Assembly (NCBI GenBank): GCA_019637915.1
Contig: JAHBUV010000001.1
Coordinates: forward strand, 1,706,565-1,770,564
Direction: 5' to 3'
DNA: 64,000 nucleotides
Source: Pseudobdellovibrionaceae bacterium
Lineage (GTDB): Bacteria; Bdellovibrionota; Bdellovibrionia; Bdellovibrionales; Bdellovibrionaceae
The position numbers and the translations under genes were made by a program. Below the pieces are notes generated by a model that was not told the origin of the DNA, made no database searches, and saw only the letters and a list, made by a program, of their open reading frames with translations. Positions 43,001 to 62,352 of the stretch are shown here, piece after piece (position 1 is the stretch's first letter; each line of letters opens with the position of its first letter).

Positions 43001-44668
<1,668 letters not shown>

Positions 44669-44677
44669 TCAATCAAA

Positions 44678-44980
44678 TCAGTGGAAAATGCCGAGGACGT
44701 CTTCCTCGCGCATCATGAGGTATTCGGCGCCATCGAGCTTGAGCTCGGTGCCGGCGTATTTGCTGAACAGGACTTTGTCGCCGGATTTCACTTCCAGGGG
44801 AAGGATTTTGCCGTCTTCGGTCACGCGGCCTTTGCCGGTGGCGACGACTTCACCGCGTTGCGGTTTTTCTTTGGCGGTGTCGGGGATGAAAAGACCGCCG
44901 GCCGTTTTTTCTTCTTCAGCCATGCGGCGAACGAGAATTCTGTCGTGCAGAGGACGCACTCCGATTTCCGTCTTAGCCAT
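44678..44980 (-). CDS. groES: 10-kDa co-chaperonin GroES
   Basis: 100 aa lid of the GroEL cage. [27 protein letters not shown] carries the mobile loop, and [28 protein letters not shown] the core barrel. Precedes groEL. No CIRCE inverted repeat is seen upstream; a TTGACT-N18-TATTAC promoter on the reverse strand is at 45051-45080. Confidence 0.97.
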
Positions 44981-45137: not shown

Positions 45138-45602
45138 TTATTTGGTTTCGTTGCCCAGCTGAAGGGCGCTGGCGGGAAGGCTTCCGCCCTGGTTTTGGGT
45201 GCCGAAAACGGAGTTGGCGTAGGCCGACATCAATTCGGCCACTTCCTCGGGGCTGAGTTTGCCCGCGACTTCCTTGTAGACCGAGTTTTTGTTGGACATT
45301 TTGGCGAGGTAACCGGCGAAGTAATCGGAGACGGTGAGTTCCTGGGCGGTCTCGACCGCCACCTTTTCACGATAAACCTGGGCTTCGAGTCTGTGGGTGG
45401 CTGGCTTTTGGCGGCGGGCGCCTGGGTCATGCTTGTGGTGGTTCAGGCGGTTTTTCACCGTTTCGTAACGGCCTTTGGCTTCACTGACCTGGGTGTTTTT
45501 CCACTCACGGTAGCTTTTCACGGACTCGGCCGCCCAAACAGTTTCGGTGGTCGCCAAAAAGGCGGCCATACTCAAGGCGAGTTTCATGATCAGCGCTTTC
45601 AT
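45138..45602 (-). CDS. Exported hypothetical protein
   Basis: 154 aa from ATG 45602, chosen for ggagg seven bases upstream and the signal peptide that follows (MKALIMKLALSMAAFLATTE through VWAA). Mature part is mainly helical, KSYREWKNTQVSEAKGRYET, and ends with LPASALQLGNETK. Unknown function; downstream of the groES promoter region but not coupled to it. It converges on nothing and reads toward groES. Confidence 0.68.
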   Translation of the reverse strand: MKALIMKLALSMAAFLATTETVWAAESVKSYREWKNTQVSEAKGRYETVKNRLNHHKHDPGARRQKPATHRLEAQVYREKVAVETAQELTVSDYFAGYLAKMSNKNSVYKEVAGKLSPEEVAELMSAYANSVFGTQNQGGSLPASALQLGNETK

Positions 45603-45742
45603 TTTGAAGCCTCCAGAGCCAACGTTCCGAATCCAGCGCCGTTGATTCAAAGGCCGTGCCGGGACCCGGAAAGGACCAAAGCGAATCTATTGGTTCTGGA
45701 TCCCCGCGTCCCCTCCTCAAGGCGGGAAATGGCCGTTAGTTG

Positions 45743-45770: not shown

Positions 45771-45778
45771 CTTTGAAT

Positions 45779-46147
45779 ATGCGAATGATCATGATGATCT
45801 CCATCGCTTACGTCCTTCTGGCTGCCTGCGGAAAAGTGCAAAATTCCTCGAGCCAAGAGCGCCAGACATACAACCCCACGCTGCCCGCCGGGAGCGCTGG
45901 ATTCGTCCCCGTTCAATCCGCCATCATTCAAAAATGCGGCGGCTGCCATGCCTGGGTCAGTTGGTCGGAGGCTCAATTCGTGAGCAACGGCTACGTGGTC
46001 CCCGGAAACCCGGGCGCTTCCCAGCTTTATGCCCGCAACATCGGCGCCACCAGCGGGGCCGGGCCCCGCACCATGCCCCCCATGGGGCAAACACCGATGA
46101 CCAATGACGAACTGGGCGCCATGGTGGCCTGGATCAACTCCCTTTAA
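45779..46147 (+). CDS. Exported c-type cytochrome lipoprotein, single heme
   Basis: 122 aa. Lipoprotein signal (SIAYVLLAACGK, lipidation Cys), then one CGGCH heme-binding motif near residue 52 (IIQKCGGCHAWVSW) and the GPRTMPPMGQTPMT region that could supply the axial Met. ATG 45779 is chosen over an in-frame TTG at 45773. Its last four bases overlap the outer-membrane gene on the other strand. It begins the cytochrome-rich cluster running to 52687. Confidence 0.8.
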   Translation: MRMIMMISIAYVLLAACGKVQNSSSQERQTYNPTLPAGSAGFVPVQSAIIQKCGGCHAWVSWSEAQFVSNGYVVPGNPGASQLYARNIGATSGAGPRTMPPMGQTPMTNDELGAMVAWINSL

Positions 46148-46734
46148 AGGGCCCAGAACCGAAGGCCGACGTTCAACGCCAATGAATTCCCGAGACCGAA
46201 GGTCCCGACCGACTGGTAAAACTCCACCCTGTCCGACATCGCCATGCGCAGGTCCAAGGAGTAACCGGGACTGTAGCTCGAACCGAATCTTTCGATGTCC
46301 TTGCGCAGGACAAAGACCGTGAAAGCCGCATCGACCCGGCGTTTGAAACGGTAAATGCCCCGCAGGTTGCCGAGAACGCCGTTCCAGTTGTGGCGGGGGA
46401 AGTTGGCCTCCGCCGTGGCTTCAAGATCCACCTGCCCCTGCAGGTACTGAACGCCGATGCCCGTTCCCCAACGGCCGCGCACCCGCTCGAATTCAAGGCC
46501 GACGCCCATGCCCTGGAAGACGCTCTTGTTCATGGTGTCGCCCGTCGAGGAGAGGGCGTTGAATTGCTCTTCGAAGTAACCCCAGAAAACAGGAACGTAA
46601 AGGCGTTGCCGGAAAGGCGGCGGACGGGGGGCGGGACGGCGGATGGTGGCCGCCGGCGGAGCGGTCTCCCGCGATGCCGCCTGCTGCGCGAAACCCGGCG
46701 AAATCAGCAAAAACAATGAAATCAAGAATCCCAC
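46144..46734 (-). CDS. Small outer-membrane beta-barrel protein
   Basis: 196 aa. Signal peptide MGFLISLFLLISPGFA, Pro-rich stretch (PAPRPPPFRQRLYVPVFW), then alternating strands GRWGTGIGVQYLQGQVDLEA, GVLGNLRGIYRFKRRVDAAF and a last LALNVGLRFWAL. Ends with an aromatic-rich strand typical of barrels. Unknown function; adjacent to and on the same strand as the heme-bearing barrel protein upstream, 12 bases away, so probably co-transcribed. Confidence 0.65.
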   Translation of the reverse strand: MGFLISLFLLISPGFAQQAASRETAPPAATIRRPAPRPPPFRQRLYVPVFWGYFEEQFNALSSTGDTMNKSVFQGMGVGLEFERVRGRWGTGIGVQYLQGQVDLEATAEANFPRHNWNGVLGNLRGIYRFKRRVDAAFTVFVLRKDIERFGSSYSPGYSLDLRMAMSDRVEFYQSVGTFGLGNSLALNVGLRFWAL

Positions 46735-46746
46735 GTCACCATCCTC

Positions 46747-47931
46747 CTACAGGGATAAGTGCAGCTGCGTCTGCACTTCCCAGGTGTCCGACTTCACCGC
46801 GTTGGTGGAGAGGACGCGCGTGTTCACCACATCGAGACGAAACTCCGTGCGCGGCAAGGGGAAGGCCAGCAGGCCGCCGCCCCAACGGGTCGTGATGTCG
46901 TTCGGGGTGCTCTTATAGGTTTCAAAATTCATGGCCCAGTTGTAACCGCGAGCGACGTTGAAAAGACCCTGCGTGAACGTGTACGTGCCGGTGGAGTTGC
47001 GGTGGCTCAGGGCCTCCTCGACGGCGCGGTTCTGAACCTGCCCGATCTCGAACATCAGGCTGTCGCCCTTGCTGTCCGGAAGGCCGATGCGGGCATGCAA
47101 GGCGCCCATGGTTTTCCGGGTGTACTTGTTTTTCGAACCGAGCAGGGAGATCCCGAAAGCCTTGCGCTCGAAAAACTCGTACTCCGTCATCATGCTGCCG
47201 CCTTGCTGGCGCAGATCCGCGTCCTGACTCTGGTTCCCGGCGAAGGCGTTCACCGAGATCTCGAATTTCGGCTGCACGTACTGCCCGATCAGACCGTGGG
47301 ATTGGTCGTTCATCGACATTTCCGTGCGACTGCGGCTGAACGAGGTGTGGTTGGGGTGGCGGATCCCGAACACCCGGTCCGTGAGCCCCAGGTACCAGAA
47401 CATGTTTTTCGATTGCTGCCAGCGGAAGTAGTGCTCGCGGCTGATCCACTCCGAAGGCATCTCCGACGGCGGGGCGTTTTTCATGGTTTGCGGCACCGGC
47501 ACGTAACCGATGCTGCCGACGAAAATGAATTTCTGGGCCCGGTCGAACAACAGCGCCATATTGAGATCGGCCTGCATGGTGATGTATTTGCTGACCGCTT
47601 TGTCGCTGCTGCCGCCCGGGTTTCTTTGCACGTAGATGCCGCGGTACTTCGCCCCGGGGCGGATCCACCAGGGAAGTTCCGTGCTGCCCAGGAAACCGGA
47701 TTTGTCGCCGATCTCGTCATCGGTGGTCTTCTTCGGGAAAACCGCGCGCGAGGTGATCTCCGTCGCGAACAAGGCCCGGCCGTAGTCGTTCAGCGGGCCG
47801 TTGCCGTTGCCATTGAAATGGCAGGTCAGGCAGGAGCGATAGCCGTACCCGATGAAGTCCGGATAAGCCAAAGCCGTCGATGCTCCCCACAAACAAAAAA
47901 AGAGAGTGCCTAAAAACCCGACAGTCTTCAT
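46747..47931 (-). CDS. Outer-membrane porin-like protein with N-terminal heme-c site
   Basis: 394 aa. Signal peptide (1-22), then a single heme-c site at Cys34-x-x-Cys37-His38 (YRSCLTCHFNG), then about 330 residues of alternating strands ending TQLHLSL. This is a heme-bearing exported protein fused to a barrel, possibly for electron transfer to or across the outer membrane. No named family recognised. The downstream barrel gene is co-directional. Confidence 0.75.
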   Translation of the reverse strand: MKTVGFLGTLFFCLWGASTALAYPDFIGYGYRSCLTCHFNGNGNGPLNDYGRALFATEITSRAVFPKKTTDDEIGDKSGFLGSTELPWWIRPGAKYRGIYVQRNPGGSSDKAVSKYITMQADLNMALLFDRAQKFIFVGSIGYVPVPQTMKNAPPSEMPSEWISREHYFRWQQSKNMFWYLGLTDRVFGIRHPNHTSFSRSRTEMSMNDQSHGLIGQYVQPKFEISVNAFAGNQSQDADLRQQGGSMMTEYEFFERKAFGISLLGSKNKYTRKTMGALHARIGLPDSKGDSLMFEIGQVQNRAVEEALSHRNSTGTYTFTQGLFNVARGYNWAMNFETYKSTPNDITTRWGGGLLAFPLPRTEFRLDVVNTRVLSTNAVKSDTWEVQTQLHLSL

Positions 47932-48098
47932 GTCAAAGATGATGACAGCTCAAAAACGGATGTCCATCTTTTGATCACCGCGATGCGATTTTTTTCGTCG
48001 GACGAGTGTCATCTTGATATGACCTCGACAGTTTTTCCCACTTTCCATTCCTCTTCCATAATAATGAGTCCATGGCAGATCGATTCGACTTCGGGGGA

Positions 48099-49343
48099 AT
48101 GATGAATTGGCGCCTTTCCATCGCCGCCGTTTTACTGACAGTGCAGTGTCCAGCGATCGCACAGGTCTCGGATCAACACCGTCAAGAAGCCAAGCGCCTG
48201 CTCGAACGCCTCGTCGGAGCGAAACTCCCTTTGGACCACGCGCTGGTCGCGCAGGCCGCGGCTCTCGTGGCGACCGGGGACCGCGCCGGGGCCGCGAAAC
48301 TCGCCACCAGCCAGCCGAATTTCTACAATCTCACCGTCAAGCAAATGGCCCTGAGGATGTCGAACCGCGAGGAAACGCTGCGCGTCCCCCTCAATGATTT
48401 CGCCGCTTCGTTCATCGGGGTCACCCGGGATGAAACCGACGCGCGGGAGCTTTTGACGGGCAACTTCCACTACAAGGGCAATCCGAATCTGTTGACGGGC
48501 TTCAATGTTCGGCAGAACATCGCCGACGATTTGCTCGCGTCGAACACCCACTACAGCGACCTCGACAACGGCACCATCGATCTCTCCACGGTCCTGATGC
48601 GCGTGGCCGGACAGCCTTTATTGATCGACGACAATAAAAACATCGCCGACAACCTGGACCCGGCGGGCGTTCTGACTTCAAGGGCCTTCATGGCGGCCCA
48701 TGCGGTCGATGGGACGAACCGCCGCTTGGTGGAGTTCACCTTCCGCGAATTCGCCTGCGTCAGCATCGATCAATGGGCCGACACCGCGGCCAGCGACCTG
48801 CGCATCGGTCGCGACATTGACCGCTTCCCCGGCGGCGATCACTTCAAATTCCAGACGAGCTGCAAAGGCTGCCACACCGGCATGGACGGCTTCCGCGGCG
48901 CTTTCGCCAAATGGGACTTCCGCAACAACAACGCCATCCTCTCCACGATGAAGGGCACGGGACGGGCGCAGGCGAACGCCAGCGCCGCCGGCGTCATGAA
49001 CAAAATGAACAAGAACAACACCGTCTATCCCGGCGGCTACGTCATGACCGACGATTCGTGGGTGAACAACGCCAGCCGCGGGACCAATGCCCTGTTGTTC
49101 GGCTGGAACGGCGCCGGCATCGACGGCGGCATGGGTGTCCAGAGTTTCGGCCGCCTGGTCGCGAATTCGAAACGCTTCAGCCAGTGCATGGCCGTCCGGG
49201 TTTTCGAGGCGGTCTGCAAAAAGCCGCTCGACCCGGAAAAACAAAAGGGCCTGATGATGGAACTTGGCTCGACGTTCGAGAGGAACGGCTACAAACTGAA
49301 AGGGCTGTTCGAAACGGTCGTCCTGCGCAGCGAATGCCATTGA
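48099..49343 (+). CDS. Exported single-heme protein, DUF1592/1588/1585-like
   Basis: 414 aa from ATG 48099 (alternate ATG 48102). Signal peptide MMNWRLSIAAVLLTVQCPAI. The C-terminal half has SCKGCHTGMDGFRGAFAKWD (heme-c motif within DUF1588-like text) and LVANSKRFSQCMAVRVFEAV, which matches DUF1585. The family is known from planctomycetes and myxobacteria, where it pairs with Tat-exported DUF1501/1552 proteins; here such a protein is two genes downstream. The first of four co-directional genes to 52687. Frame is open further up to 48072, without a signal there. Confidence 0.75.
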   Translation: MMNWRLSIAAVLLTVQCPAIAQVSDQHRQEAKRLLERLVGAKLPLDHALVAQAAALVATGDRAGAAKLATSQPNFYNLTVKQMALRMSNREETLRVPLNDFAASFIGVTRDETDARELLTGNFHYKGNPNLLTGFNVRQNIADDLLASNTHYSDLDNGTIDLSTVLMRVAGQPLLIDDNKNIADNLDPAGVLTSRAFMAAHAVDGTNRRLVEFTFREFACVSIDQWADTAASDLRIGRDIDRFPGGDHFKFQTSCKGCHTGMDGFRGAFAKWDFRNNNAILSTMKGTGRAQANASAAGVMNKMNKNNTVYPGGYVMTDDSWVNNASRGTNALLFGWNGAGIDGGMGVQSFGRLVANSKRFSQCMAVRVFEAVCKKPLDPEKQKGLMMELGSTFERNGYKLKGLFETVVLRSECH

Positions 49344-49371
49344 TCCTTGATTGATTCTCCGGGGGGAGATG

Positions 49372-50043
49372 ATGTCCTTGTCCAAAGGGTTTCTCAAAAC
49401 TTTCGTTTTCTGCGGCCTGGCCGCCGCGGCGATCGCCGTCGCGTTCACCAACTGCGGCCGTCCTTCGTGGTCCGCCGCGGACTACTCCTCCCTGCACGAC
49501 CCTTTCGGCGGCCTTTCCAACATCGGCACCAAAAGGGTCAACACGACCCCCTACGCTCTGCTGAATTCGGAGCAGGTTTATAAATCCATGCTCAACGTCA
49601 CCGGTCAGGCCGCGCCGACCAACGCTCAGATCACCGAGTACGGCCGCCGCTCGGGCGCTCTCGCGGCCAGCGGGGAATTGGATCTGATCAACAGCCCGAT
49701 GCTGATCGGCATCTCCAGCCTGGCGGGCGAGGTCTGCAACGGTCTGCTCGCCAAGGAGATCGCGCTCGCCGCGGACCAAAGGCAATTTTTCCCCGGCGTG
49801 AATTTCGCCCAGGGCATCGGCGCCCTGCCCGCCGCTTCCTTCGACGATTCCGTTCACCGCATGGCGCGCTCGTTCTGGGGGCGCGATGAAAAGCCGGAGG
49901 AGTCGGCGGCCCTCGTCGCTTTCCGGGCGGATTTCCTTTCGACCCTCACGGCGCAACAGCAGACCCAGAGCGCCTCGACCAGAAACCTTTTCCTCGGAAC
50001 CTGCGCGGGCATGCTCGCCAGTTTCGACGCTTACACTTACTAA
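49372..50043 (+). CDS. Exported lipoprotein of the cytochrome cluster
   Basis: 223 aa from ATG 49372 with ggggag just upstream; ATG 49369 lies next to it. Signal helix KTFVFCGLAAAAIAVAFTNC, with Cys following an FTN and so a non-standard lipid-attachment site, then a helical domain of unknown type. No heme motif. It lies between the DUF1585-like heme protein and the Tat-exported protein, 28 and 15 bases away. Confidence 0.7.
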   Translation: MSLSKGFLKTFVFCGLAAAAIAVAFTNCGRPSWSAADYSSLHDPFGGLSNIGTKRVNTTPYALLNSEQVYKSMLNVTGQAAPTNAQITEYGRRSGALAASGELDLINSPMLIGISSLAGEVCNGLLAKEIALAADQRQFFPGVNFAQGIGALPAASFDDSVHRMARSFWGRDEKPEESAALVAFRADFLSTLTAQQQTQSASTRNLFLGTCAGMLASFDAYTY

Positions 50044-50058
50044 AAGGCGGGAAGACGC

Positions 50059-51489
50059 ATGAGCAAAGAGAAAAAAGACATTCCTTTGTGGGCGAAGACC
50101 GGTCACGCGCGTCCCGTCACGCGACGGGACTTCCTGGCGGCGGGCCTGATTCCGTTCGCCGCGAGCGCCCTGTTGCCGAGCTGGATGTCCCTGTTCCTCG
50201 CCTCGCCGGAGGCGCAAGCGCAGAGCGCCCTGAACTGCTCCTCGGGAAACAGCGCTTGGATTCCCTTCATCACGCTGAACCTGGCGGGCGGCGCGGCCAT
50301 GATGTCGAACTACCTGCCGATGAACGCGGCCGGCGCCCCGATCGCCTCTTACAGCAAAATGGGCCTCGGCAACAAAGACGTCCCGATCGCGCGCGAATTC
50401 GGCAACGTGCCTTTCGCCGGCGAAATGAACGGGCAACTGCTCAGCCGCTTTCTCGATGGCGTGCGCGCCACCGCGGCGGCCTCCCTGTCGAACACGGCTT
50501 TCATGGGCTTGTGCGTCCGCTCCCGCGATGATTCCGCTGAAAACCGCTTCGATGTCAGCGGCATGGCCCACGTGGCCGGTCTGGCGGGGTCGCGCCTGCC
50601 GAATCTCGGCTCGAACGACAGTCTCTCGGGCTTCGATCAGCTGCCCGCCGTCGTCGCGCCGCCCTCGCCCCTGGTGATCCGCAGCTTCAACGACGCGGCC
50701 AATGCCCTGGGCTTCAGCGCGTCCCTGGGGACCGCGCTCACCCAACCCCAGCGCGAGAAAGTCGCGAAGCTCGTCTCGAGCCTCAACTCATCGCAAGCCC
50801 GCAAGCTCGCCTCCTTTGAAGGCGGCGATGTCCTGCAGAATCTCGTCAGCTGCGCCGGCATCAAGAACGAGGATCTCATCCGCCAGGGTTCCGCCGCCGT
50901 CGATCCCCGCCAAAACGCCGCCATCGCCCAGCTCTGGAACATCAACGCCAACACGGGCGCCAACAACCGCGATCTCGTTTTCGCCACCATGGTTTACAAC
51001 GCCGTGAGCGGCCAGTCGGGGAGCGCCAACCTGCAGCTCGGCGGATTCGACTATCACGACAACAGCCGCAACACCGGCAACACGCGCGATCGCGAGGCGG
51101 GCCTTCTGGTCGGCCGCATCCTCGAAACCGCCCGCCTGCTGAACCGCCCGGTGTTCCTGTACGTCACCTCCGACGGCGCCGTTTCCTCGGCCGAGTCCGA
51201 GACGGACCGCCTGGCGCCGTGGACCAGTGACCGCGGTTCCGCCGGCGGCTCCTACATCCTCGTCTATCATCCCGCGGGGCGCATCGTGACCACTCACTAT
51301 CAGATCGGCTCTTTCACGGACGGCCAGGCCGCGGATGATAAATTCGTCATCGGCAACAATCCGGAGCTCGCCGCCCAGGCCGTTTTCGCCAACTACCTGC
51401 AACTCAACCGCCGCATGGATCTTTTCGAGCGCATCGCCGGCCGCGGCCTGGACAGCAAAGGTTTGAGCGAGGTCATCAAGATTGCCTAA
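50059..51489 (+). CDS. Tat-exported DUF1501-like protein
   Basis: 476 aa. Twin-arginine signal VTRRDFLAAGLIPFAASALL then cleavage after AQAQ. The domain contains LQLGGFDYHDNSRNTGNTRD and LNRPVFLYVTSDGAVSS, which resemble the LGGWDTH and late acidic segments of DUF1501. In other bacteria such proteins pair with DUF1592/1585 cytochromes; the match is to a distant part of the family. The next gene starts before its stop. A sulfatase-like fold is possible but unproven. Confidence 0.7.
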   Translation: MSKEKKDIPLWAKTGHARPVTRRDFLAAGLIPFAASALLPSWMSLFLASPEAQAQSALNCSSGNSAWIPFITLNLAGGAAMMSNYLPMNAAGAPIASYSKMGLGNKDVPIAREFGNVPFAGEMNGQLLSRFLDGVRATAAASLSNTAFMGLCVRSRDDSAENRFDVSGMAHVAGLAGSRLPNLGSNDSLSGFDQLPAVVAPPSPLVIRSFNDAANALGFSASLGTALTQPQREKVAKLVSSLNSSQARKLASFEGGDVLQNLVSCAGIKNEDLIRQGSAAVDPRQNAAIAQLWNINANTGANNRDLVFATMVYNAVSGQSGSANLQLGGFDYHDNSRNTGNTRDREAGLLVGRILETARLLNRPVFLYVTSDGAVSSAESETDRLAPWTSDRGSAGGSYILVYHPAGRIVTTHYQIGSFTDGQAADDKFVIGNNPELAAQAVFANYLQLNRRMDLFERIAGRGLDSKGLSEVIKIA

Positions 51490-52687
51490 ACAGTTCCGTT
51501 GGTTGTCAGGGGTGGGCCTCACGTGTTTGCTGTTGTTGGCGTACAACAACTGCAGCCAGGGCCCGTTCGCGCTGATGACGGTGAACTCGGAGGATTTCGC
51601 CTCGAACCGGATCTTTTTCTCCGGCAGCTGCGAAGCGGAATTGATGAACCTCTACGCCAACACCTACCGGCCCTTTCTGACGAACTCCTGCGCCAGTTGC
51701 CATACCAACGGTCCCGGCATCGGCGCTTTCGGGTCGGCGGATTTTCAGGTTTCATACGATTCTTTCAAGAGCATCGGCCGTGACAAGATCCACCGCCAGT
51801 CCCTGAACGCCGGCCATCAGCCCGGGATCACGGGGCCGCAGAACGCCGACCGCCTGGATCCTTACCCCTCGCGCTGGCTCGCCGCGGAGGCGAGCTACGA
51901 GAGCTGCCGCTCGCAAGAGCCCGATTACGTCCCGACCTCCCTGCTCACCCTGCACAAGGCGAACGCGCAGATTCTTCAGCGGGCGAACGCCAACCAGACC
52001 AACTGGACGCGCCTTGAATGGGACCTGACGACCGAGGCCGCGAACAGCCAGCAGCGGAATCTCTATCCGATGATTCTCGGGATCGAGGCCCGCGTCGCCG
52101 TCGTCGGCGGCGTCCGCCGCGGTTATGAGTTCCGCAACCCCACGGCGCGCCTGAAGGCCGCCGGCGGCGGTTACACCATCAAAGGCCTCAGGCTCTCGAT
52201 CAATGACGCCAAACTCGTCGACGTCACGACCTTCGCCACCGTGAACATGGGCGTGCCGGGCACGACGGACGTGAATCTGGCCCCCGGGTCCGCTTTCGCC
52301 CTGGCGGTGATGGAGCCCGTGCTCGCCACCGATCGTTTCGCGATCGAAGTGATGGAAATCGCCAACGGCGCCATTCCTCCGGGCGGCGGAGGGGGCGGCG
52401 GCCCCACCGAGCCCGAGCCCAGCCTGCCGACTTCGGTCAGCTGGACTCAACTGACCTCCAATGACGCCACCTTGGGCGTGTTCCGGCAAAGCTGCCTCAA
52501 CTGCCACGGAGCGACCAATCCCAGCGCGGGCTTGAATCTCCTGGACTACGCCAAAGCCAAGGCCGCCGCGAATGAAATCATGTCCCGCATGAACAACGCC
52601 AACAACCCCATGCCGACGTCGGGACTCCTCAGCAACGAAAAGCGCGAATTGATCCGCATCTGGGTGCAGGGCGGGGCGGCTCAGTAG
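51482..52687 (+). CDS. Exported diheme cytochrome lipoprotein
   Basis: 401 aa from TTG 51482, overlapping the previous stop by eight bases and preceded by gagg. Signal helix (LSGVGLTCLLLLAYNNC, lipid-type Cys24), then heme motif Cys70-x-x-Cys73-His74 (LTNSCASCHTNG) and a second near the C-terminus, LNCHGATNPS. A Gly-rich linker (GGGGGGGP) separates a beta-sandwich-like middle from the last cytochrome domain. Last gene of the four-gene exported set. Confidence 0.75.
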   Translation: MPKQFRWLSGVGLTCLLLLAYNNCSQGPFALMTVNSEDFASNRIFFSGSCEAELMNLYANTYRPFLTNSCASCHTNGPGIGAFGSADFQVSYDSFKSIGRDKIHRQSLNAGHQPGITGPQNADRLDPYPSRWLAAEASYESCRSQEPDYVPTSLLTLHKANAQILQRANANQTNWTRLEWDLTTEAANSQQRNLYPMILGIEARVAVVGGVRRGYEFRNPTARLKAAGGGYTIKGLRLSINDAKLVDVTTFATVNMGVPGTTDVNLAPGSAFALAVMEPVLATDRFAIEVMEIANGAIPPGGGGGGGPTEPEPSLPTSVSWTQLTSNDATLGVFRQSCLNCHGATNPSAGLNLLDYAKAKAAANEIMSRMNNANNPMPTSGLLSNEKRELIRIWVQGGAAQ

Positions 52688-52708: not shown

Positions 52709-53695
52709 TTACAAAGAAAGATCTTTCTCCGCCTCTTCCAGGCAGCTGACCTTGGACAGCCACTGGTACCCCGACAGCAATTCCACGATCCCGTCATCGG
52801 GCAGGCCGCGAATGGCGCCGGTCTCGCGGTTCAGCTCGGCGACCACGATATTGCCCAGGGAATTTTTCCTGTCGTGCTTCAAGAAGCCCAGAGCCTCGAT
52901 GTCGGCTTTGTTCTCGTCCCACCAGCGGTGGAAGTTTTCCGTGTGCCGGCGGGCGGCGGCCGCGTCCACCCCGCCGCCGAAGTTGATCATGCCGTCGGCG
53001 GAATAATATCGCAGCGGGATGACGACTTCGTGGCCGATCTCGGCGTCGCGGTCGCGCCAGATGTCGTGCAGGGGTTTGCCCACCTCGCAGTAACTCACGA
53101 ACCAACTGCCGAATTTCACTTCGAAAGTGAACTCATCGAAGTCCTCGTCGGCCAGCGGATAGCGCTTCACCACGTCGTTCAAACCGAAGTTGCAATGAAT
53201 GATCGGCACCAGGCCCGCGCCTTTGCGGATGATGACGTCCTCGTACTGATGGATCGTGAGGTTCAATTCGTCCAGGGCCTCGCGGAACTCATTCGCGCCC
53301 TCGCGGTAAATCCCCGCGGGATTCTTCATCGGGCCGCGGTGCTTTTCGAAATAGACGTGCAGGTGGTTCATGTATTCCTGGGTCATGCCCGGATGGGCGC
53401 GCTCAGGGACCAGACCGGGGTGGTGGGCATTGATGGTGTCGATCGCCCGGTTGAGCTTCGCGACGATGCGTTCTTCGGTGTCGTAGCTGTTCGGGAAATT
53501 CGGGAAGCGGTCGCGACGGTAGAGGTGATCCCGCTCGCAGGCGATTTTCAGGGCTTCAAAGTATTTGCGGCTGACGGGCGTGCTCTTCAAATCCCAAAAA
53601 AGGTGGATCTGGTCACGGGGGTCTTCTTTGTGAACGTCGCGGCGGGAGAAGGTGACCTTGATTTGTTTCAAAGGGTTTCTCCCGCCCGGTCTCAC
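52709..53695 (-). CDS. Unknown protein coupled to a nitronate monooxygenase-like gene
   Basis: 328 aa, no signal, mostly helical, no family I recognise. Visible: FPNFPNSYDTEERIVAKLN, EYMNHLHVYFEKHRGPMKNP and NFGGGVDAAAARRHTENFH. Conserved-looking His and aromatic clusters (HRWWDENK) suggest an enzyme or binding fold. GTG start overlaps the nitronate monooxygenase-like stop by four bases (GTGA), so the two are coupled. Confidence 0.68.
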   Translation of the reverse strand: MRPGGRNPLKQIKVTFSRRDVHKEDPRDQIHLFWDLKSTPVSRKYFEALKIACERDHLYRRDRFPNFPNSYDTEERIVAKLNRAIDTINAHHPGLVPERAHPGMTQEYMNHLHVYFEKHRGPMKNPAGIYREGANEFREALDELNLTIHQYEDVIIRKGAGLVPIIHCNFGLNDVVKRYPLADEDFDEFTFEVKFGSWFVSYCEVGKPLHDIWRDRDAEIGHEVVIPLRYYSADGMINFGGGVDAAAARRHTENFHRWWDENKADIEALGFLKHDRKNSLGNIVVAELNRETGAIRGLPDDGIVELLSGYQWLSKVSCLEEAEKDLSL

Positions 53696-55176
53696 AATCC
53701 GCTTTCGAGGGCTTTTTCCACCGGTCGCTCGGGCGCGACGGTTTTTTCCTCGCTCAGCAGGTAGGCGACGACGTCTTTGGCGCCGTAGTGCTCTTGTCCC
53801 GGTTTCAGAATCCGGGCGATTTTATTCAAATCATCGCCCGCCGTGAGCAAGTGCATTTCAACGCGGCCGCCGGCCTGGATCTGCGGCATGCCGATATCGG
53901 CCATCAGGGCGTTGCACAGGCACTTGCGGCCGACGGTGTCTTCCTCGAGGCCGCCTTTTTTCACGTAATCCGCGACCGGTTCGGCGGGGCAGCGTTGTCC
54001 CAGGCTGCCGTCCTCTTTTTTATAGAAATGACGGAGGTACCCGAGATCGCAAATGCGTTTGCGCGAGAGATAAATGCTCTCTTCCGAGATGCTGCCCGGG
54101 ATGCGCGCGGCCTTGAACGGGAAGCCCGTGGGGGAGGAGCGCGGATCCGTGAAGATCCAGCCGCCCTCCGGCGGTTTTTCATGCAAAACGGTGTGAATGG
54201 CCCCGGCGCGAAGTTTCGGGTCAACACCCGACTCGTCCGAGAACGCGAACAGGGTGCCGACCTGAATGCCGTGGGCGCCTTGTTCGCGCACCTGACGGAA
54301 TTTTTCCGGGGTGGCGTAATCGCCCGCCATCCAGAAGGGCAGCTCGAGGGCGGCCATGTCGGCCAGCGAAACCGCGTCGCGCTCGCCGTAAATGGGCTCG
54401 CCGCGCTCGTTCAGTTTCATCGGGCCGCGCGGGGGCGCATTGTGCCCGCCCGCCAGGGGGCCTTCGACGATGAAGCCGTCCACGCGGCCGGTGGATTTCT
54501 TTTTCAGGTTCATCGCCAGCACGGCGGAGGAAACGATCGGGAAGAAGTAGGGGCGCTTCAGGGGCTTCAGCTCCAGGCCCTCCATCACGTCGCGGGGATC
54601 GAAATACGTCACGGCGTCTTCACCGCCCACCACGGGGATTTTCAGGCCGGCCTTTTCGTTGTTGGCGAAAAGATCCAGGGCGCCCGGGATCTCGCGCGGG
54701 ATGCCCGCGCCCATGATGACGTAATCCACATCCGCGAGCATGGCGCCATACAGGCAAGCCAGGTTGGGGAGCTGAATTTTCTCGAGCAAATTCAAACCGA
54801 CGACGCCGTCGTGGCCTTCACGGGCCAGCCAGACTTCCACGAAGCAGGCGGCCACCGTGGTCTGCAGCAGGAATTTCGGCGACTCCAAAGAAAACATCGG
54901 CGGGCGCTTGTAGGCCTGGCCCGGATTGCGGCCGTTCTCCAGAAAGTAGGTCTCGAGGATTTTCTGCGCGATGGCTTGCGACGGAAAGGCCGCCAAGGCA
55001 CGACGACAGTGACCACCGACATCACCGTCCTGCAAACGGCGGACGAGGACCGAATTGATGGCGGTGCCGGAGACAACGCCCAACTGCCCGGTCTCGGACA
55101 CGGCTTTGGCCAATTTCCAGTCGGAAACGGCGATGCCCATGCCGCCTTGAATAAGAATCGGGTGATTTTTGTGCAT
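53692..55176 (-). CDS. Nitronate monooxygenase/2-nitropropane dioxygenase-like FMN protein
   Basis: 494 aa. From ATG 55176 it opens PILIQGGMGIAVSDWKLAKA as in nitronate monooxygenases, with GTAINSVLVRR, PIVSSAVLAMNLKK, FIVEGPLAGGHNAPP and GIQVGTLFAFSDESGV. Later text (RKRICDLGYLRHFYKKEDGS, GRKCLCNALMADIG) is not typical of the short enzymes and is seen in longer PfaD-like relatives. Upstream in-frame codons reach 55254 but the domain begins at 55176. Reaction substrate unknown; coupled downstream to the 328-residue protein. Confidence 0.85.
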   Translation of the reverse strand: MHKNHPILIQGGMGIAVSDWKLAKAVSETGQLGVVSGTAINSVLVRRLQDGDVGGHCRRALAAFPSQAIAQKILETYFLENGRNPGQAYKRPPMFSLESPKFLLQTTVAACFVEVWLAREGHDGVVGLNLLEKIQLPNLACLYGAMLADVDYVIMGAGIPREIPGALDLFANNEKAGLKIPVVGGEDAVTYFDPRDVMEGLELKPLKRPYFFPIVSSAVLAMNLKKKSTGRVDGFIVEGPLAGGHNAPPRGPMKLNERGEPIYGERDAVSLADMAALELPFWMAGDYATPEKFRQVREQGAHGIQVGTLFAFSDESGVDPKLRAGAIHTVLHEKPPEGGWIFTDPRSSPTGFPFKAARIPGSISEESIYLSRKRICDLGYLRHFYKKEDGSLGQRCPAEPVADYVKKGGLEEDTVGRKCLCNALMADIGMPQIQAGGRVEMHLLTAGDDLNKIARILKPGQEHYGAKDVVAYLLSEEKTVAPERPVEKALESGL

Positions 55177-55351
55177 GTTGAGCAATCTATCGGGAAGAAG
55201 GCCCGCGATGCAATCAAAGAGTGGAAAAAACCTCAGGAAACAGATAGTTGGCAATTCATGTAAACGTTTGATTTAATTTCACTTTTTCACAGAATCGCCC
55301 ACTCTGTCGACAGACAAATCATGAAACAAATCAAGCTTCTGCGGATGGGGT

Positions 55352-56113
55352 TTACTTCTTCCGGGTGAGTTCCACGATCTCCTCGAGCTTTTCCACGGGC
55401 TGCACTCCGCTCAGCGCAATGCCGTTGAGAATCATCGTCGGGGTTCCATTGAAGCCGAAGGCTTGGAATTCCGCCATGTCCTCTGCGACGGTCTTTTTCA
55501 CCGCGGCGGATTTGACGTCGGCGGCGAGCTTGCCGGGGTGAGCGCCAACTTGAGCGGCCGCTTTTTTCAGAAACGCTTCATCTTTCAGTTGTCTTTGATG
55601 GGCGAAGACATGCTCGTAGAACTTGAGCGCTTTGACTTTGTCCTGACGGCGGATCGCCTCGAAGTACAGCGCGGCCGGAAAGGCCATCGGGTGGAAATCG
55701 AGGGGCATGTTCTTGTAATAGACCTGGATGTCATTTTTGTGCTTTTGTTTGAACTCCTTCAATGACTCGCTCGCCATTTTGCAGGCGGGGCATTGAAAAT
55801 CCACGTACTCCACCAGCACGATGGGGGCCTTGTCGTCGCCGATCAACCTCCGCTCCTCTGAAAGCTTCGGTTGTTTGGGATTTTTCAAATCCCTCTCCTG
55901 CCCTTTTTTCATTTCAGAAGCGTGTTGTTCATATTGCGCCTGCTGGGCCTTCTGGGCCGCGCGATTGACGGATTCGATGAACCGGACGGGATTCTCCTCA
56001 ATCGCCTCGAACACGATGTCCGGATTCTTTTTGATCGCCTCGCGGATCTGGTTTTCGCTGGAAACGCAACCGGAGACGGCGAAACCACCCAATGCCAGGA
56101 TTAACTTTTTCAT
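55352..56113 (-). CDS. DsbA-like thiol-disulfide lipoprotein
   Basis: 253 aa. Lipoprotein signal (LALGGFAVSGC, Cys16), helical spacer with a KAQQAQYEQHASEMKK stretch, then a thioredoxin fold with Cys108-Pro-Ala-Cys111 (VDFQCPACKMAS) and cis-Pro GTPTMILNG. This fits the BdbD/DsbA or Com1-like lipoprotein group. The ATG overlaps the M56 peptidase stop, so it is part of the BlaI operon. Confidence 0.88.
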   Translation of the reverse strand: MKKLILALGGFAVSGCVSSENQIREAIKKNPDIVFEAIEENPVRFIESVNRAAQKAQQAQYEQHASEMKKGQERDLKNPKQPKLSEERRLIGDDKAPIVLVEYVDFQCPACKMASESLKEFKQKHKNDIQVYYKNMPLDFHPMAFPAALYFEAIRRQDKVKALKFYEHVFAHQRQLKDEAFLKKAAAQVGAHPGKLAADVKSAAVKKTVAEDMAEFQAFGFNGTPTMILNGIALSGVQPVEKLEEIVELTRKK

Positions 56114-57667: not shown

Positions 57668-57711
57668 TGGGGTCTGGAGTCTAGTTTTTCGGGATGCAGG
57701 AAAATTGCGGT

Positions 57712-57870
57712 CTATTCATCAGTTCCTGCAACAATTTCCACTTTGATGCGATCGGGGTCTTCGAAATAGACCGCGTAATTTCCACCCGCACGTGGATGCG
57801 AGCTTGTTTCTTAGATGGTGGAGTAGACGACGAAGTCATCCAGCCGACTTTGCAGCTACTGACGGTCCAG
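57712..57870 (-). pseudogene. Decayed VOC/glyoxalase-family gene remnant
   Basis: In one reverse frame the sequence reads HPRAGGNYAVYFEDPDRIKV and then EIVAGTDE before a stop at 57712-57714. This is a typical C-terminal strand of VOC (glyoxalase/bleomycin-resistance) proteins. Upstream the same frame carries two in-frame stops, so this is a fragment of a broken gene. No start is present. Confidence 0.6.
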
Positions 57871-57940
57871 TAATGACTGCAACCTCCTTGGTACCTATAA
57901 GTAGTTGATAATAATAATGACTTCGTGCAGTATTTGATTT

Positions 57941-58102
57941 TGCTACAAAAAATGATTCAAAATTTGCAGCAACCTATTTGTAATTATAAGTGCTTATATT
58001 TATTAGGTATTATCATTATGGACCAGTTTTCTACAAAAAGTACTCAAAAACTTGTAGAATGATGACAGGTTTTCTACAAAATATGCAGCAAATTTTGCAG
58101 AT
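57941..58102. promoter_or_regulatory. Three matched 31-bp dyads upstream of the Fic gene
   Basis: Each is eight bases, fifteen bases, eight bases: TGCTACAA/TTGCAGCA (57941-57971), TTCTACAA/TTGTAGAA (58029-58059, perfect) and TTCTACAA/TTGCAGAT (58072-58102). Centres are 88 and 43 bases apart; the third ends 17 bases before the Fic ATG. This suggests a regulator that binds repeatedly in the leader, perhaps the Fic protein itself through its C-terminal HTH. Confidence 0.6.
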
Positions 58103-58119
58103 AAAGTTGCGGGTATAAA

Positions 58120-59364
58120 ATGAGCAAAGACGACTTTGATTTCTTAAATTCGGACATCTGGCTCAACTACACCCAGCAAAGCTATCGATCTCCTGAAGAG
58201 ATCAGGTATCGACTTCAGGAGAAAAATAAAAAGCCGAAAGATTGGGAATCAGTGGCGAGAAAGATCGTCGCTATTCGAAAAACCAATGCGATCACACTGT
58301 TCATCGATTCGATTGCACCGAGGTTTTGGTTTTATCCTGCTGACAGCATTCTACGGAAAATTAATGAAATCGACCGAATCGGAACTGCTCTATACGAAAG
58401 GATTCGGCGTGCGACATTTGAACAAGAGTTTCTATTAAATTCGAGAATTGAAGAGGCGATCACTTCTGCAATTTACGAAGGTGCTCACAGTACGAGAGCA
58501 CAAGCAAAGCAGCTAATCGCGTCCAAGGAAACACCCAAGAACAAAGATGAGTGGATGCTCATCAATAACCTTCTGGCCATGAATTGGGTGAAGGATCACA
58601 ATCAAGAAACCCTTTCCAAAGACACGATCCTTACCCTTCATGAAATTGTAACTCGGAACACTCTCGAAGGTGATGACGTCAACTACTCAGGTCGGTTTCG
58701 CGACGACACGGTGAGTGTCGGTCCGCATGAAGGAATTCAATACGATTTGATTGAGACCGCTATCAATCAAATGATCAAACTCATTACTCAGAATAGACGT
58801 TACATACATCCAATTATTAGAGGCGTACTCATCCACTACTTCATTGCATATATTCATCCGTTCTTCGACGGAAACGGGCGAACTGCCAGAGCACTCTTCT
58901 ATTTCAAATCAATGAAACACAATTTGAAGTATGTTGAGTTACTTTCCGTCTCTGCCTACTTGAAACAGCATGGGGAGCAATATGAAAAGGCATTTCAAAA
59001 AGTCGTAGAGAACGAATACGACGTGACCTACTTCATCGATTTTTGCCTAGACTCGATGCTCTCAGCATTAAAACAGGTAGAGAAGAAGATTACTTATTTA
59101 ATTCGAATGGCTGACCTAAAGCAGCGGTTCAAGCTTAACGACAATCAGCTTGGATTACTTCAACGGATGGCTCTCAATAAGTTCCGATTCGTACATATCG
59201 AAGAGTATGCAGCACAGATCAAAATGTCTCGTGAGACTGCCCGGCAAGATTTAAAGGAACTCCAAGATCAAGGTCTGTTGATCGAATTCAAGTCTGGCAA
59301 GAAGCTCTGCTACAAGGTCAACGCAGAGAAGCTAAGAGAGCTTTATAAAGATCCAGGTGTTTAG
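58120..59364 (+). CDS. Fic/DOC-family protein with N-terminal inhibition motif and C-terminal HTH
   Basis: 414 aa, predicted AMP-transferase. Fic motif HPFFDGNGRTAR starts at His246, with Asp250 and the GNGR anion hole. The inhibition helix motif S-x-x-x-E-G is at Ser116-Glu120-Gly121 (ITSAIYEGAH), so it is a class II, self-inhibited form. The last 75 or so residues have a DeoR-like winged helix, YAAQIKMSRETARQDLKELQ. AT-rich relative to genes before 57.7 kb, so likely acquired. Alone, without an adjacent antitoxin gene. Confidence 0.88.
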   Translation: MSKDDFDFLNSDIWLNYTQQSYRSPEEIRYRLQEKNKKPKDWESVARKIVAIRKTNAITLFIDSIAPRFWFYPADSILRKINEIDRIGTALYERIRRATFEQEFLLNSRIEEAITSAIYEGAHSTRAQAKQLIASKETPKNKDEWMLINNLLAMNWVKDHNQETLSKDTILTLHEIVTRNTLEGDDVNYSGRFRDDTVSVGPHEGIQYDLIETAINQMIKLITQNRRYIHPIIRGVLIHYFIAYIHPFFDGNGRTARALFYFKSMKHNLKYVELLSVSAYLKQHGEQYEKAFQKVVENEYDVTYFIDFCLDSMLSALKQVEKKITYLIRMADLKQRFKLNDNQLGLLQRMALNKFRFVHIEEYAAQIKMSRETARQDLKELQDQGLLIEFKSGKKLCYKVNAEKLRELYKDPGV

Positions 59365-59691
59365 CACTTGCTTCACGGGTTCAGCCCGGTCTGCTCAGAG
59401 GGAGAAGGTCAGACTCTACCCTTTAAGGGGCGTTGTGTCCACCAAACCGGGGCAACTTCACTAGAGATACTTATTCCCAAACCAAAATAACCCGCAGCAT
59501 TAAGTATTTGATAACTTTTACTAAAACTACTTAGAGCATTTAAATAAAACCTGAAATATCTGTCTTTCAAATGGACCATTTCATTTACTTTTGTAAACAC
59601 AAAAGACGACCTAGACCTTGTTTGAAAAATTTAAACTCCGTAGGATCTGGTTGTGCGCACATAAACAAAAAAATTAAGGAGAATTTTTAAA
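59365..59691. other. Gene-poor stretch with GC-richer patch and hairpin repeat
   Basis: No convincing gene. 59375-59465 is more GC-rich than its surroundings, and 59436-59460 begins TGTCCACCAAACCGG and reads like the end of an IS3-type element, though no transposase follows. CTTTTGT (59588-59594) and ACAAAAG (59599-59605) form a hairpin repeat with a four-base loop, about 90 bases before the next gene. A 63-codon reverse frame at 59409-59600 has no protein-like pattern and is not called. Confidence 0.4.
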
Positions 59692-60282
59692 ATGAAAACC
59701 GCAATTCTGTTTTTTAGTCTTTTAGTAGGCGGCTTCGCCCATGCACAAGTTATCGCAGACACGTTTGAGTGCCGAGCCAAAATAGTTGATCTTAAAACAA
59801 ATGACACCGCAGAAAGTGTCGGCATGGCGGCAGGCCATCGCATAGTGACGCCGATAGATTCCTCAACAGGACAACCATATCCATCAAATATGGAAGTCTC
59901 TAAAGGCGAGGCTAAACTAAGTTTGGCGCTTAACGGAAAAATAAATTCATACAAAGTTGATTTCAATCTTCAGTATGGATTTGCTAAACGTTCTCTTCCA
60001 AATCCCACTGAAGCTCGACAGTATGTTTGCAATCAAGTTACACTTCAAAGTTGTCAGAATGGTGAGATGGGTTCGTGTGCCGCTGCGAGCACAATTTGCG
60101 TAGTAATTCCAGATCCTTTTGATCCTAAATATGGGTGGAGCGAAACAATCTTAATTCAAAAAGTCCCAGTGTTTAATGAAAAACTTTTGCGTCCTCTCGA
60201 TACAATCGTTCCGATTGATCCAAATGACCCTAATGGAGCACGCGTAACTGTCTCTTGCAAATTTCAAGGAACATACCTCTAA
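59692..60282 (+). CDS. Exported hypothetical protein, regulator-associated
   Basis: 196 aa. Signal peptide of about 19 residues (MKTAILFFSLLVGGFAHA), then ADTFECRAKIVDLK and a four-Cys region around QVTLQSCQNGEMGSCAAAS. Probably disulfide-bonded, with DTFECRAK resembling the RDSFECTIRSG text of the 61090 protein. ATG has aaggag ten bases upstream. It stands two bases ahead of a TIGR02147 regulator. Confidence 0.72.
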   Translation: MKTAILFFSLLVGGFAHAQVIADTFECRAKIVDLKTNDTAESVGMAAGHRIVTPIDSSTGQPYPSNMEVSKGEAKLSLALNGKINSYKVDFNLQYGFAKRSLPNPTEARQYVCNQVTLQSCQNGEMGSCAAASTICVVIPDPFDPKYGWSETILIQKVPVFNEKLLRPLDTIVPIDPNDPNGARVTVSCKFQGTYL

Positions 60283-60284
60283 CG

Positions 60285-61103
60285 ATGCAATCAGTTAGAC
60301 CTGTTGTTTTTGATTATACTGACCCGTCAGAATTCCTCCGAGACCTTGGCGAGCACAATAGAGAAACTCGCCGAGGTTTCAGTGTTCGTGCCAGATCAAA
60401 AGATATGGTCGGGTGCTCGCCTGCTCTTATTTCACAAGTTTTAAAAGGTCAGAGAAAACTAAAACGTGACCAACTGTTAAATTTCGCAAAAGTCTTTGGG
60501 CTAACAACCACCGAAGTAAACCACATCGACAATCTTCTTAAGTCAGAACAAACGCAAGGTGCGCTTAGTGACTTTTCTATTCCTACAAAGGAAGCAACAG
60601 CAAAAGTTCCTAAAAATCATCTTTTGGCTGATTGGTTGCATCCCTACGTAAAAGACCTTATTGAGCTAAAAGATTTTAAGCTTGATGTGAAATGGATGCT
60701 TCAGCATCTGGGCTTCGCAGCAACTCCACCTAAAATTGAAAAATCAGTTCAATTTCTTCTCAAGGAAGGGTTCTGGAGAAAAACTCCCGAAGGGAAAATT
60801 GTTCCTGAAGAAGCAGCAGTCGTGACGACAAATGAGATTCCAAATGAAAAAATTAAAGCCTTTCATAAGCAGGCATTAAAAATTGCAGCAAAAGGCTTGG
60901 AAGAGTTTCCTGTAAATCGGCGTAAAGCTTCAACCATTCTCGTCGCCGTTAATGAGGACTCAAAAGAAGAACTGAAAGCTCTCATCAATAAATTTCAAAG
61001 TGATTTGGTTTCATTTATGGAAAATCATTCGCAGGACAAGGACGAACTTATGCAAGTGACGATTCACATGACTCCAATCGGAGGACAAGATGTCAAAAAG
61101 TAA
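60285..61103 (+). CDS. TIGR02147-family HTH transcriptional regulator
   Basis: 272 aa from ATG 60285; a 30-base in-frame upstream extension overlaps the previous gene and lacks sense. HTH at about residues 32-72 (GCSPALISQVLKGQRKLKRD), then WLHPYVKDLIELKDFKLD, FHKQALKIAAKGLEEFPVN and TILVAVNEDSKEELKALINK, as in TIGR02147. AT-rich codon use differs from the similar regulator at 5987-6751. It overlaps the following GNGG gene by 14 bases. Confidence 0.86.
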   Translation: MQSVRPVVFDYTDPSEFLRDLGEHNRETRRGFSVRARSKDMVGCSPALISQVLKGQRKLKRDQLLNFAKVFGLTTTEVNHIDNLLKSEQTQGALSDFSIPTKEATAKVPKNHLLADWLHPYVKDLIELKDFKLDVKWMLQHLGFAATPPKIEKSVQFLLKEGFWRKTPEGKIVPEEAAVVTTNEIPNEKIKAFHKQALKIAAKGLEEFPVNRRKASTILVAVNEDSKEELKALINKFQSDLVSFMENHSQDKDELMQVTIHMTPIGGQDVKK

Positions 61104-62100
61104 AATAATTTTATTTCTATATTTAATGTGTCCTGCATTTTCTTTTGCGGGAACAGTGGTTGGAAATGGTGGGGAGCCTATTCTACATTATTTAGAGGCT
61201 TCACGTTTCGCTCTTATTGAAACACTCAGAGATATTCATAATGATCCAAAAAAGAATGCTGAGTTTTGCTCTAAGGAGTCACAACTCAATGCCGATCAGA
61301 AAAATTTCTGCCGTGAGTATTTATTGGAAATTTTAGATCAAGTCATCACGCTGAACCTTGAACCGAAAAAAGTTCCCTTTGTTCTGAGAGAAGACCCTTT
61401 GCTTGTGGTTGGGCCAGATGGAAAACCGATGCCAGTTTCTGCAAGAACTGAACTCGGCGACCAAGGGCCTATTGAGTTTCATCTTGATTCTATTAAGTTG
61501 ATGGCTCCTAAAGACCTTTTGCAATTGGTAGCACACGAATTTCAACATAAAATCACTTATAAAAACAGCAGTCCGACAGACAATGATCCTATTGGGCCGT
61601 TTCAATATGGACGATTTTTGATTGATTCTGTAGCATCTGCTATCGTGAAAGTGGCTATTGAAACTGGAAGGATTGGCACGCAGCTTGTTCTTCGGGATAG
61701 TTTTGAATGCACCATCCGCTCGGGTTCATCGCAATTTGGAATGAGGGCCTCAACGCAAAGATGGTTTTTTGATTCTTCTCTTACAAGCTACAAAACAAGT
61801 CTTAGCGAACTGCCGACAGACCCATTTATTTTTGTTTCAGAGACCATCGATTCAAAAATTGTTTTTCAGCTCAACATTACTGATAAGAATCACTGCCAAA
61901 ATCTGAATGATGCCAGCTTACGACAATCTCGTTTGGCCTTGTGGAGAGTATTCAATAATCCTCAAACACCATCGCAATTGATTTCTGAACAAAAGCTGCC
62001 TGGAGTGAATCCTCTGTGCGAAAAAGTATCACCGCTTTTCACAGCAGACTTTCAAGCCATTCATTTTGATTGCAAGTATTACGGGACTGAGGCTCACTAA
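61090..62100 (+). CDS. Exported GNGG-family protein with HExxH
   Basis: 336 aa. Signal peptide (about residues 1-20) then TVVGNGGEPILHYLE (GNGG at 25-28). VAHEFQHKITYK holds an HExxH motif at His149-Glu150-x-x-His153, followed by GPFQYGRFLIDSVASAIV; hence a candidate zinc peptidase. The C-terminal half is a separate domain with RDSFECTIRSGSSQF. It overlaps the TIGR02147 gene and has the same regulator-plus-GNGG arrangement as 4692-6751. No catalytic assignment beyond the motif. Confidence 0.75.
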   Translation: MSKSKIILFLYLMCPAFSFAGTVVGNGGEPILHYLEASRFALIETLRDIHNDPKKNAEFCSKESQLNADQKNFCREYLLEILDQVITLNLEPKKVPFVLREDPLLVVGPDGKPMPVSARTELGDQGPIEFHLDSIKLMAPKDLLQLVAHEFQHKITYKNSSPTDNDPIGPFQYGRFLIDSVASAIVKVAIETGRIGTQLVLRDSFECTIRSGSSQFGMRASTQRWFFDSSLTSYKTSLSELPTDPFIFVSETIDSKIVFQLNITDKNHCQNLNDASLRQSRLALWRVFNNPQTPSQLISEQKLPGVNPLCEKVSPLFTADFQAIHFDCKYYGTEAH

Positions 62101-62107
62101 GAATAAG

Positions 62108-62134
62108 GACGCAGCTATTTTATTAAGCTGCGTC
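62108..62134. terminator. Hairpin after the GNGG gene
   Basis: A nine-base stem gacgcagct (62108-62116) with agctgcgtc (62126-62134) and nine-base loop. On the reverse strand it follows the stop of the remnant frame at 62133 and is trailed by T-rich sequence; a terminator for either strand, with little T-tract on the forward side. Confidence 0.5.
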
Positions 62135-62346: not shown

Positions 62347-62352
62347 ATTATT

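Follow-up and report, generated by a model that had tools for sequence, protein, structure and literature searches.

Introduction

Exported heme proteins of the PSCyt/PSD kind, with DUF1588 and DUF1585 in their C-terminal half, occur in Planctomycetes, Verrucomicrobia and Myxobacteria as pairs with a nearby DUF1501 or DUF1552 protein, which is exported by the twin-arginine translocation (Tat) pathway and has an alkaline-phosphatase-like fold. Nothing is known of PSCyt functions, and PSCyt genes are found with carbohydrate-binding modules in Verrucomicrobia (PMC5615132); DUF1501 is without biochemical characterisation (PMC4452313), and DUF1501-DUF1800 genes are linked to bacterial chitin synthases in some Proteobacteria (PMC5122149). 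The cytochrome-porin Cyc2 is defined by the sequences AXPXFAR[Q/K][T/Y] before and PXL after its heme motif, and the porins OprO and OprP have been named as its structural relatives (PMC8406198). Here we describe a cluster of seven genes, A to G, in a 64,000-nucleotide stretch of DNA (the window) from a genome of the phylum Bdellovibrionota (3.32 Mb, 99.8% complete). Genes D to G, which encode apparent distant relatives of such a pair together with two lipoproteins, are kept in one order across the phylum, and beside them lies C, which is modelled as an outer-membrane cytochrome-porin of Cyc2-like architecture and whose gene is linked, in other genomes, to a second pair of the same type.

Gene order and conservation

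The cluster occupies positions 45773-52687, between groES/groEL and the gene starting at 52709:

45773/45779-46147, plus strand: A, single-heme (CGGCH) lipoprotein with lipobox LAAC, about 122-124 residues (open reading frame and sequence reading)
46144-46734, minus strand: B, small outer-membrane barrel-like protein, 196 residues (open reading frame and alignment)
46747-47931, minus strand: C, signal peptide, CLTCH at residues 34-38, then a predicted 16-strand outer-membrane barrel, 394 residues (open reading frame and model)
47932-48071, no strand: divergent intergenic region between C-B and D-E-F-G, about 140 bp
48072-49343, plus strand: D, single-heme protein with CKGCH at residues 264-268, 423 residues (open reading frame)
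49351-50043, plus strand: E, fast-evolving lipoprotein of no known family (...FTNC), 230 residues
50059-51489, plus strand: F, Tat-exported protein with RR at residues 22-23, 476 residues (open reading frame)
51482-52687, plus strand: G, diheme lipoprotein with two CxxCH motifs (...YNNC), 401 residues (open reading frame)
43001-44980, minus strand: groES/groEL, flanking the cluster

The 192 genomes of the phylum were searched with F, of which 73 were positive. Up to 20 kb was read around 40 of the F matches, giving, with the window, 41 loci chosen solely for encoding F. D-E-F-G is contiguous and in the same order in 39 of these, the two exceptions being a contig end (L052) and a duplicated locus (L053), and this at F identities of 21-56% across the compared loci. 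Conversely, of five genes that flank it in the window (GroEL and those at 45138-45650, 52709-53695, 53692-55254 and 55352-56113), not one is met again in any of the other 40 loci. A run of genes so well kept among flanks that are not is more than chance, and an origin of the cluster in coincidence or in an annotation artefact is thereby excluded. The run has the form of a PSCyt-DUF1501 pair, a heme protein and a DUF1501-type gene lying in one operon-like stretch, here with E between them.

A first-pass annotation of the window had reported the seven exported proteins, and all the open reading frames are indeed present with coordinates and descriptions as it gave them. It had also named scattered gene order in relatives as the finding that would tell against its reading. 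Nothing of the kind is seen for D-E-F-G; for C-B-A scattering does occur in part, C and B sharing a stretch with D-E-F-G in 20 of the 41 loci, where their order and orientation vary. B comes after C in nearly every locus, and A homologues are close to C in most.

By inspection, each product begins with a signal peptide, a lipobox or a twin-arginine motif. The start of A is probably the ATG at 45779, and the signal peptide of D probably begins from an ATG near 48099. Genes D, E, F and G are separated by 8, 16 and -7 bp. C-B and D are divergently oriented; B and A are convergent and overlap by a few bases. Weak promoter-like matches, to the consensus only, are found on both strands of the divergent region (48035-48062, plus; 47966-47939, minus).

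The heme motifs are strongly conserved. Residues C264, C267 and H268 of D are invariant in 35 of 35 sequences and the CxxCH of C in 20 of 20, while G homologues usually have two such motifs and A homologues usually one. Pfam finds weak cytochrome c and CBB3 matches in A, and the second CxxCH of G lies inside a Cytochrome_CBB3 domain. Hemes need not carry electrons: a noncanonical cytochrome c is reported to aid calcium loading of PilY1 in Myxococcus (PMC8833165). We nevertheless consider it very improbable that these hemes have no electron-transfer role and that the proteins are structural or sensory, given that CxxCH is conserved in four separate proteins of a single conserved cluster.

The lipoproteins E and G (window 49351 and 51482) and their homologues have an unusual feature, in that the putative lipidated Cys often follows Asn, Gln or His (FQNC, YNNC) and not the usual Gly, Ala or Ser. 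In a count made at the first Cys, Asn precedes it in 31 of 71 G proteins and in 18 of 72 E proteins.

Protein C and its resemblance to Cyc2

The first-pass annotation rightly saw outer-membrane partners in the cluster: C is modelled as a 16-strand barrel, and B appears from its sequence to be a barrel as well, its homologues ending in the aromatic C-terminal strand typical of outer-membrane proteins (those in Bacteriovoracia have an additional N-terminal part). What it overlooked is the fusion of cytochrome and porin predicted for C, which is the best mechanistic lead. The AlphaFold2 model (predicted local distance difference test, pLDDT, 74) places the barrel after a heme segment of low confidence. 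Foldseek relates the model to porins at E = 1e-11, and its best structural matches are OprO (Z 24.6, root-mean-square deviation (rmsd) 3.1 over 293 residues) and OprP (Z 24.1), the same porins to which Cyc2 has been likened. Met119 and His195, both in the barrel part, are invariant in C; the model puts His195 in its third long loop, a position that could offer a ligand for pore or heme.

The plan that C would share with Cyc2 comprises a signal peptide, a single N-terminal c-heme motif, a modelled 16-strand porin of OprO/OprP type and a gene for a small c-type cytochrome nearby, which for C is A. Among the six plasmid-borne Cyc2 homologues that formed our comparison set, a c-type cytochrome gene is annotated after cyc2 in five loci and upstream of it in the sixth (L197). 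Equally, there are differences. C is nearly always followed by the second barrel B, it is linked to DUF1585/DUF1501-type pairs and, in a scan of named genomes, it was found almost only in records named Bdellovibrionota. Above all, neither the AXPXFAR[Q/K][T/Y] sequence before CXXCH nor PXL four residues after it is present in any of 93 C sequences, a motif of GPLNDYGR type standing in the latter place; C is thus Cyc2-like and not Cyc2. Its consensus before the heme, a.aYp.fIg.gY.s (IGYGY where Cyc2 has AR[QK][TY]), does retain A-x-P-x-F, and after the heme it retains L-x-x-Y-G-R, both being shared with Cyc2. Aligned with the Cyc2 heme-region profile, that of C scores 34.4 over 35 columns, compared with 23.3 on average and 31.4 at most in 100 column shuffles that retained CxxCH, and with 32.2 for an unrelated pair of heme regions. 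On this showing C may be a distant relative of Cyc2, and the model suggests that it works like Cyc2 in plan. In NCBIfam, C homologues match no family for DUF1501, DUF1552, DUF1585 or Cyc2-type proteins, and sequence searches with the profiles of D, F and C against solved structures returned nothing credible.

Porin-cytochrome conduits such as MtrCAB likewise combine heme proteins with an outer-membrane barrel, but they are decaheme systems with a 26-strand barrel where C has one heme and a predicted 16 strands. An MtrCAB-type conduit was rejected on finding no multiheme MtrA- or MtrC-like protein in the cluster. More generally, electrons might leave the periplasm by way of D and G, A and C and reach an acceptor outside the cell, for instance ferric iron, humics or compounds derived from prey. 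Export conduits are in general built from an outer-membrane cytochrome-porin and cytochromes anchored by lipid, and direction cannot be read from sequence. Even so, we judge export improbable: a single heme in C is short for spanning the membrane outwards, as argued for Cyc2 (PMC8406198), and the genome encodes three COX1-family oxidases, making oxygen a likely acceptor.

Proteins D and F as probable distant relatives of the DUF1585 and DUF1501 families

In Pfam and NCBIfam no window protein matches DUF1501, DUF1552, DUF1585 or a Cyc2-type family. The first-pass description of D as DUF1585-like is upheld by its homologues and by profile comparison, and not by any Pfam or NCBIfam match of D itself, which in Pfam gives no DUF1588 or DUF1585 match at E<=1. 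At that same cut-off DUF1588 is matched by 12 of 35 D homologues (best 0.002) and DUF1585 by 15 of 35 (best 9.4e-6). The D profile matches that of D', the heme protein of the second-type pair described below, at 97.5% and, over the last 62 columns, the C-terminal end of the 1676-residue DUF1585 protein encoded elsewhere in the same genome at 95%. Cys382 and Cys422 are invariant in D, as is CxxCH. Together these comparisons indicate that D is a distant relative of DUF1588 (PSCyt3) and DUF1585 (PSD2).

For F the description as DUF1501-like holds for predicted fold, motif order and a profile match, and does not extend to family membership. Not one of 36 homologues matches DUF1501 (PF07394) at E<=1 or any other Pfam family, and NCBIfam likewise yields no match of F homologues to DUF1501, DUF1552, DUF1585 or Cyc2-type proteins. 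The twin-arginine RR is invariant in all 36. Profile comparison with DUF1501-type proteins gives 3.6% directly and 68% against the broader profile of F', the partner of D', which itself matches DUF1501 at 99.8%. DUF1552 (PF07586, HXXSHH) was tried for F and rejected, with no match in the 36 proteins and a profile value of only 8.5%.

DUF1501 shares the alkaline-phosphatase superfamily fold with the other members of its Pfam clan. The model of F (pLDDT 82) has the alkaline-phosphatase/sulfatase superfamily fold, matching NPP3 (VIA, Z 11.8, rmsd 3.8 over 216 residues) among many rows of the superfamily; by Foldseek the likeness is weaker (best E 1.8e-3). Compared with the DUF1501 motif pattern (GG.D, GG.D.H, SEF.RT, DH), the motifs of F come in the same order: a GG close to the first strand, GGYDYH in the position of GG.D.H, an Asp, itself invariant, at the place of SEF and Asp391 at DH. 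Two probable metal ligands are lacking in F: the Asp that follows the first GG, where F mostly has Ala, Asn or Gly, and the His of DH. We read F as a distant DUF1501 relative whose metal site appears altered.

Besides lying below Pfam detection, the window pair differs from the PSCyt/PSD pairs in the extra E between D and F, the diheme G after them, the outer-membrane cytochrome-porin beside them and the lack of DUF1592, DUF1595 or DUF1587 parts. The DUF1592 and DUF1552 components invoked by the first-pass annotation were not found in the cluster. What it said of the pair having no settled function agrees with PMC5615132 and PMC4452313.

Some members of the PSCyt/PSD group have lectin-like domains, and some D homologues too carry one (Laminin_G_3, 2.1e-6), while Calx-beta or FG-GAP parts occur in E-like homologues; these domains hint at polymers. 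It could be, then, that D-E-F-G builds or modifies a surface polymer, with F binding or transferring a polymer group, the hemes of D and G serving oxidative cross-linking or modification and not respiration, and C-B being a barrel for export or anchoring whose heme is structural. The company that DUF1501 genes keep with chitin synthase genes, and PSCyt genes with carbohydrate-binding modules, would suit this explanation as well. In the loci read, whose annotation is incomplete, we recognised neither a glycosyltransferase nor a polymerase next to the cluster, and a set of four or five c-heme proteins suits electron transfer better than it does one oxidation step. We think it distinctly unlikely.

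Long E-like or other lipoproteins lie upstream of D or replace E in some lineages (L053:7726-10476, L045:13433-15610, L039:11460-13337), and some of these carry Calx-beta or FG-GAP repeats.

Linkage of the barrel genes to two types of pair

C is present at any strength in 125 of the 192 genomes and D in 83. Counted by eye from match lists, strong C matches (E<1e-100) occur in 72 genomes, F in 73 and both in 53 (Fisher odds ratio 14, P 3e-15, with relatedness ignored), and in some 31 of the 53 the distance from C to D or F is no more than about 10 kb, a tally also made by eye. The full set, C-B, A and G-F-E-D, is found together in Bdellovibrio bacteriovorus strain kdesi (L083). Searches of plasmids gave no match for F or D and only one, at chance level, for C.

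Where C-B is without F it is often beside a second pair, D' and F' (for example in L175 and L176). D' matches DUF1585 over the Pfam cut-off and DUF1588 below it; F' matched DUF1501 at 35.1 and 25.1 bits in the two proteins tested, the cut-off being 27. The second-type cluster has the same C and B families, and lipoproteins and a small heme protein come after D' and F'. It differs in that F' retains the DHG motif lost by F, that its lipoproteins are different ones, and that no G-type diheme protein appears in the loci read. When 93 distinct C genes were classed by their neighbours, 38 were near the first type of pair, 17 near the second (one on a weak match) and 14 near neither within at least 8 kb, the other 24 lying too close to the end of a contig to be classed. 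These labels are intermingled on the C tree, where they need 38 changes compared with a shuffled mean of 47. A division of C into clean clades, one for each cluster type, is ruled out by this mixing, which means that barrel and pair have been combined or kept together in many lineages. The joining of one barrel module to two DUF1585/DUF1501-type pairs is the strongest argument for a functional tie between barrel and pair.

Alternatively, C-B-A could be a self-standing system that oxidises ferrous iron in the manner of Cyc2, whether to gain energy or to detoxify the iron set free from prey, with D-E-F-G a different envelope system sharing its neighbourhood and perhaps its regulation. The Cyc2 architecture and porin relatives predicted for C agree with such independence, as do the 14 loci in which C-B-A, often with YceI, is without D or F within about 8-10 kb, and the several genomes with D-E-F-G and no C. 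Against it, adjacency in about 31 of 53 genomes is hard to explain by chance, C-B is independently linked to the second pair, and C has none of the Cyc2 motifs. We regard independence as unlikely, if a serious contender.

In many relatives A or C is adjoined by a protein with a YceI domain (PF04264, at most 67 bits; L083:11772-12254, L085:11785-12270, L099:9138-9632, L120:9151-9636); no such gene was seen in the window's cluster.

In the genome of the window a classical DUF1552 protein adjoins the 1676-residue protein already mentioned, which has DUF1585 over the cut-off and two CxxCH (G000:C1:984600-991000; L180:8625-14992); this is a pair of the sort envisaged by the first-pass annotation. 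DUF1800-DUF1501 gene pairs in relatives (L182:5560-8738, L183:5962-9220) represent a third DUF1501 arrangement. Within the window itself, GC content drops to 40%, from about 60%, in the region 57700-64000, which has the look of an acquired island; it encodes what by eye is a Fic-like protein (58120-59364) and several exported proteins of unrecognised kind.

Proposed function

Our leading proposal, to which we give a little less than an even chance, is that A-G form a two-module cell-envelope electron-transfer system acting on one periplasmic electron pool. In the first module, C-B-A, C would sit in the outer membrane with its single heme plugging the periplasmic mouth of the barrel; a small reductant or metal ion would enter the pore and exchange electrons with C, which would pass them to the monoheme lipoprotein A, with B as an accessory barrel. 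In the second, D-E-F-G, we infer that folded, Tat-exported F, heme protein D and the membrane-tethered E and G make up a periplasmic or surface complex, which might bind an anionic or glycan-like polymer from which the hemes of D and G would draw electrons. Both modules would then feed periplasmic cytochromes and, through them, heme-copper oxidases, so that electrons would flow inwards. Attachment of the hemes is plausible, since the genome encodes a cytochrome c assembly protein.

Several results weigh against the two-module proposal. To the missing Cyc2 signature must be added the scores of up to 32.2 that other heme regions of the set reach against each other, near the 34.4 of C and Cyc2, and the loss from F of two probable DUF1501 metal ligands, which leaves an enzymatic role uncertain. 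The co-occurrence and adjacency figures were, as said, tallied by eye. In most genomes of one sister family, which belongs to the same taxonomic order, D-E-F-G is present without strong C (e.g. G053, G159, G168, G171, G191), and in several close relatives it is D-E-F-G that is missing while C is there (G083, G089, G092, G148). The barrel module is therefore a frequent, not an obligatory, partner of D-E-F-G.

A broader generalisation would make a Cyc2-like outer-membrane cytochrome-porin the standing partner of DUF1585/DUF1501-type heme-hydrolase pairs, in an undescribed, phylum-wide envelope oxidation system, and so assign the pair of planctomycetes, myxobacteria and Bdellovibrionota to extracytoplasmic electron transfer. 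We offer this tentatively, as possible though rather unlikely. Each ingredient is of a known kind; the cluster, the cytochrome-porin family and their joining appear to be new. In the open-access literature searched, we found no paper on the Bdellovibrionota cluster, on the C family or on their joining, and no account of function for the DUF families or for Cyc2 in connection with Bdellovibrio.

Significance

If the model of C is right, Cyc2-like architecture would extend beyond the iron oxidisers where it is known, in proteins whose heme-region motif would escape searches made with the published Cyc2 motif. Pairs of PSCyt/DUF1585 and DUF1501 type abound in several phyla, where their function is not known. 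In the present case two separate versions of such a pair stand beside an outer-membrane cytochrome-porin in bacteria that are culturable and genetically tractable, Bdellovibrio bacteriovorus included, and the function of the pair thereby becomes a testable question.

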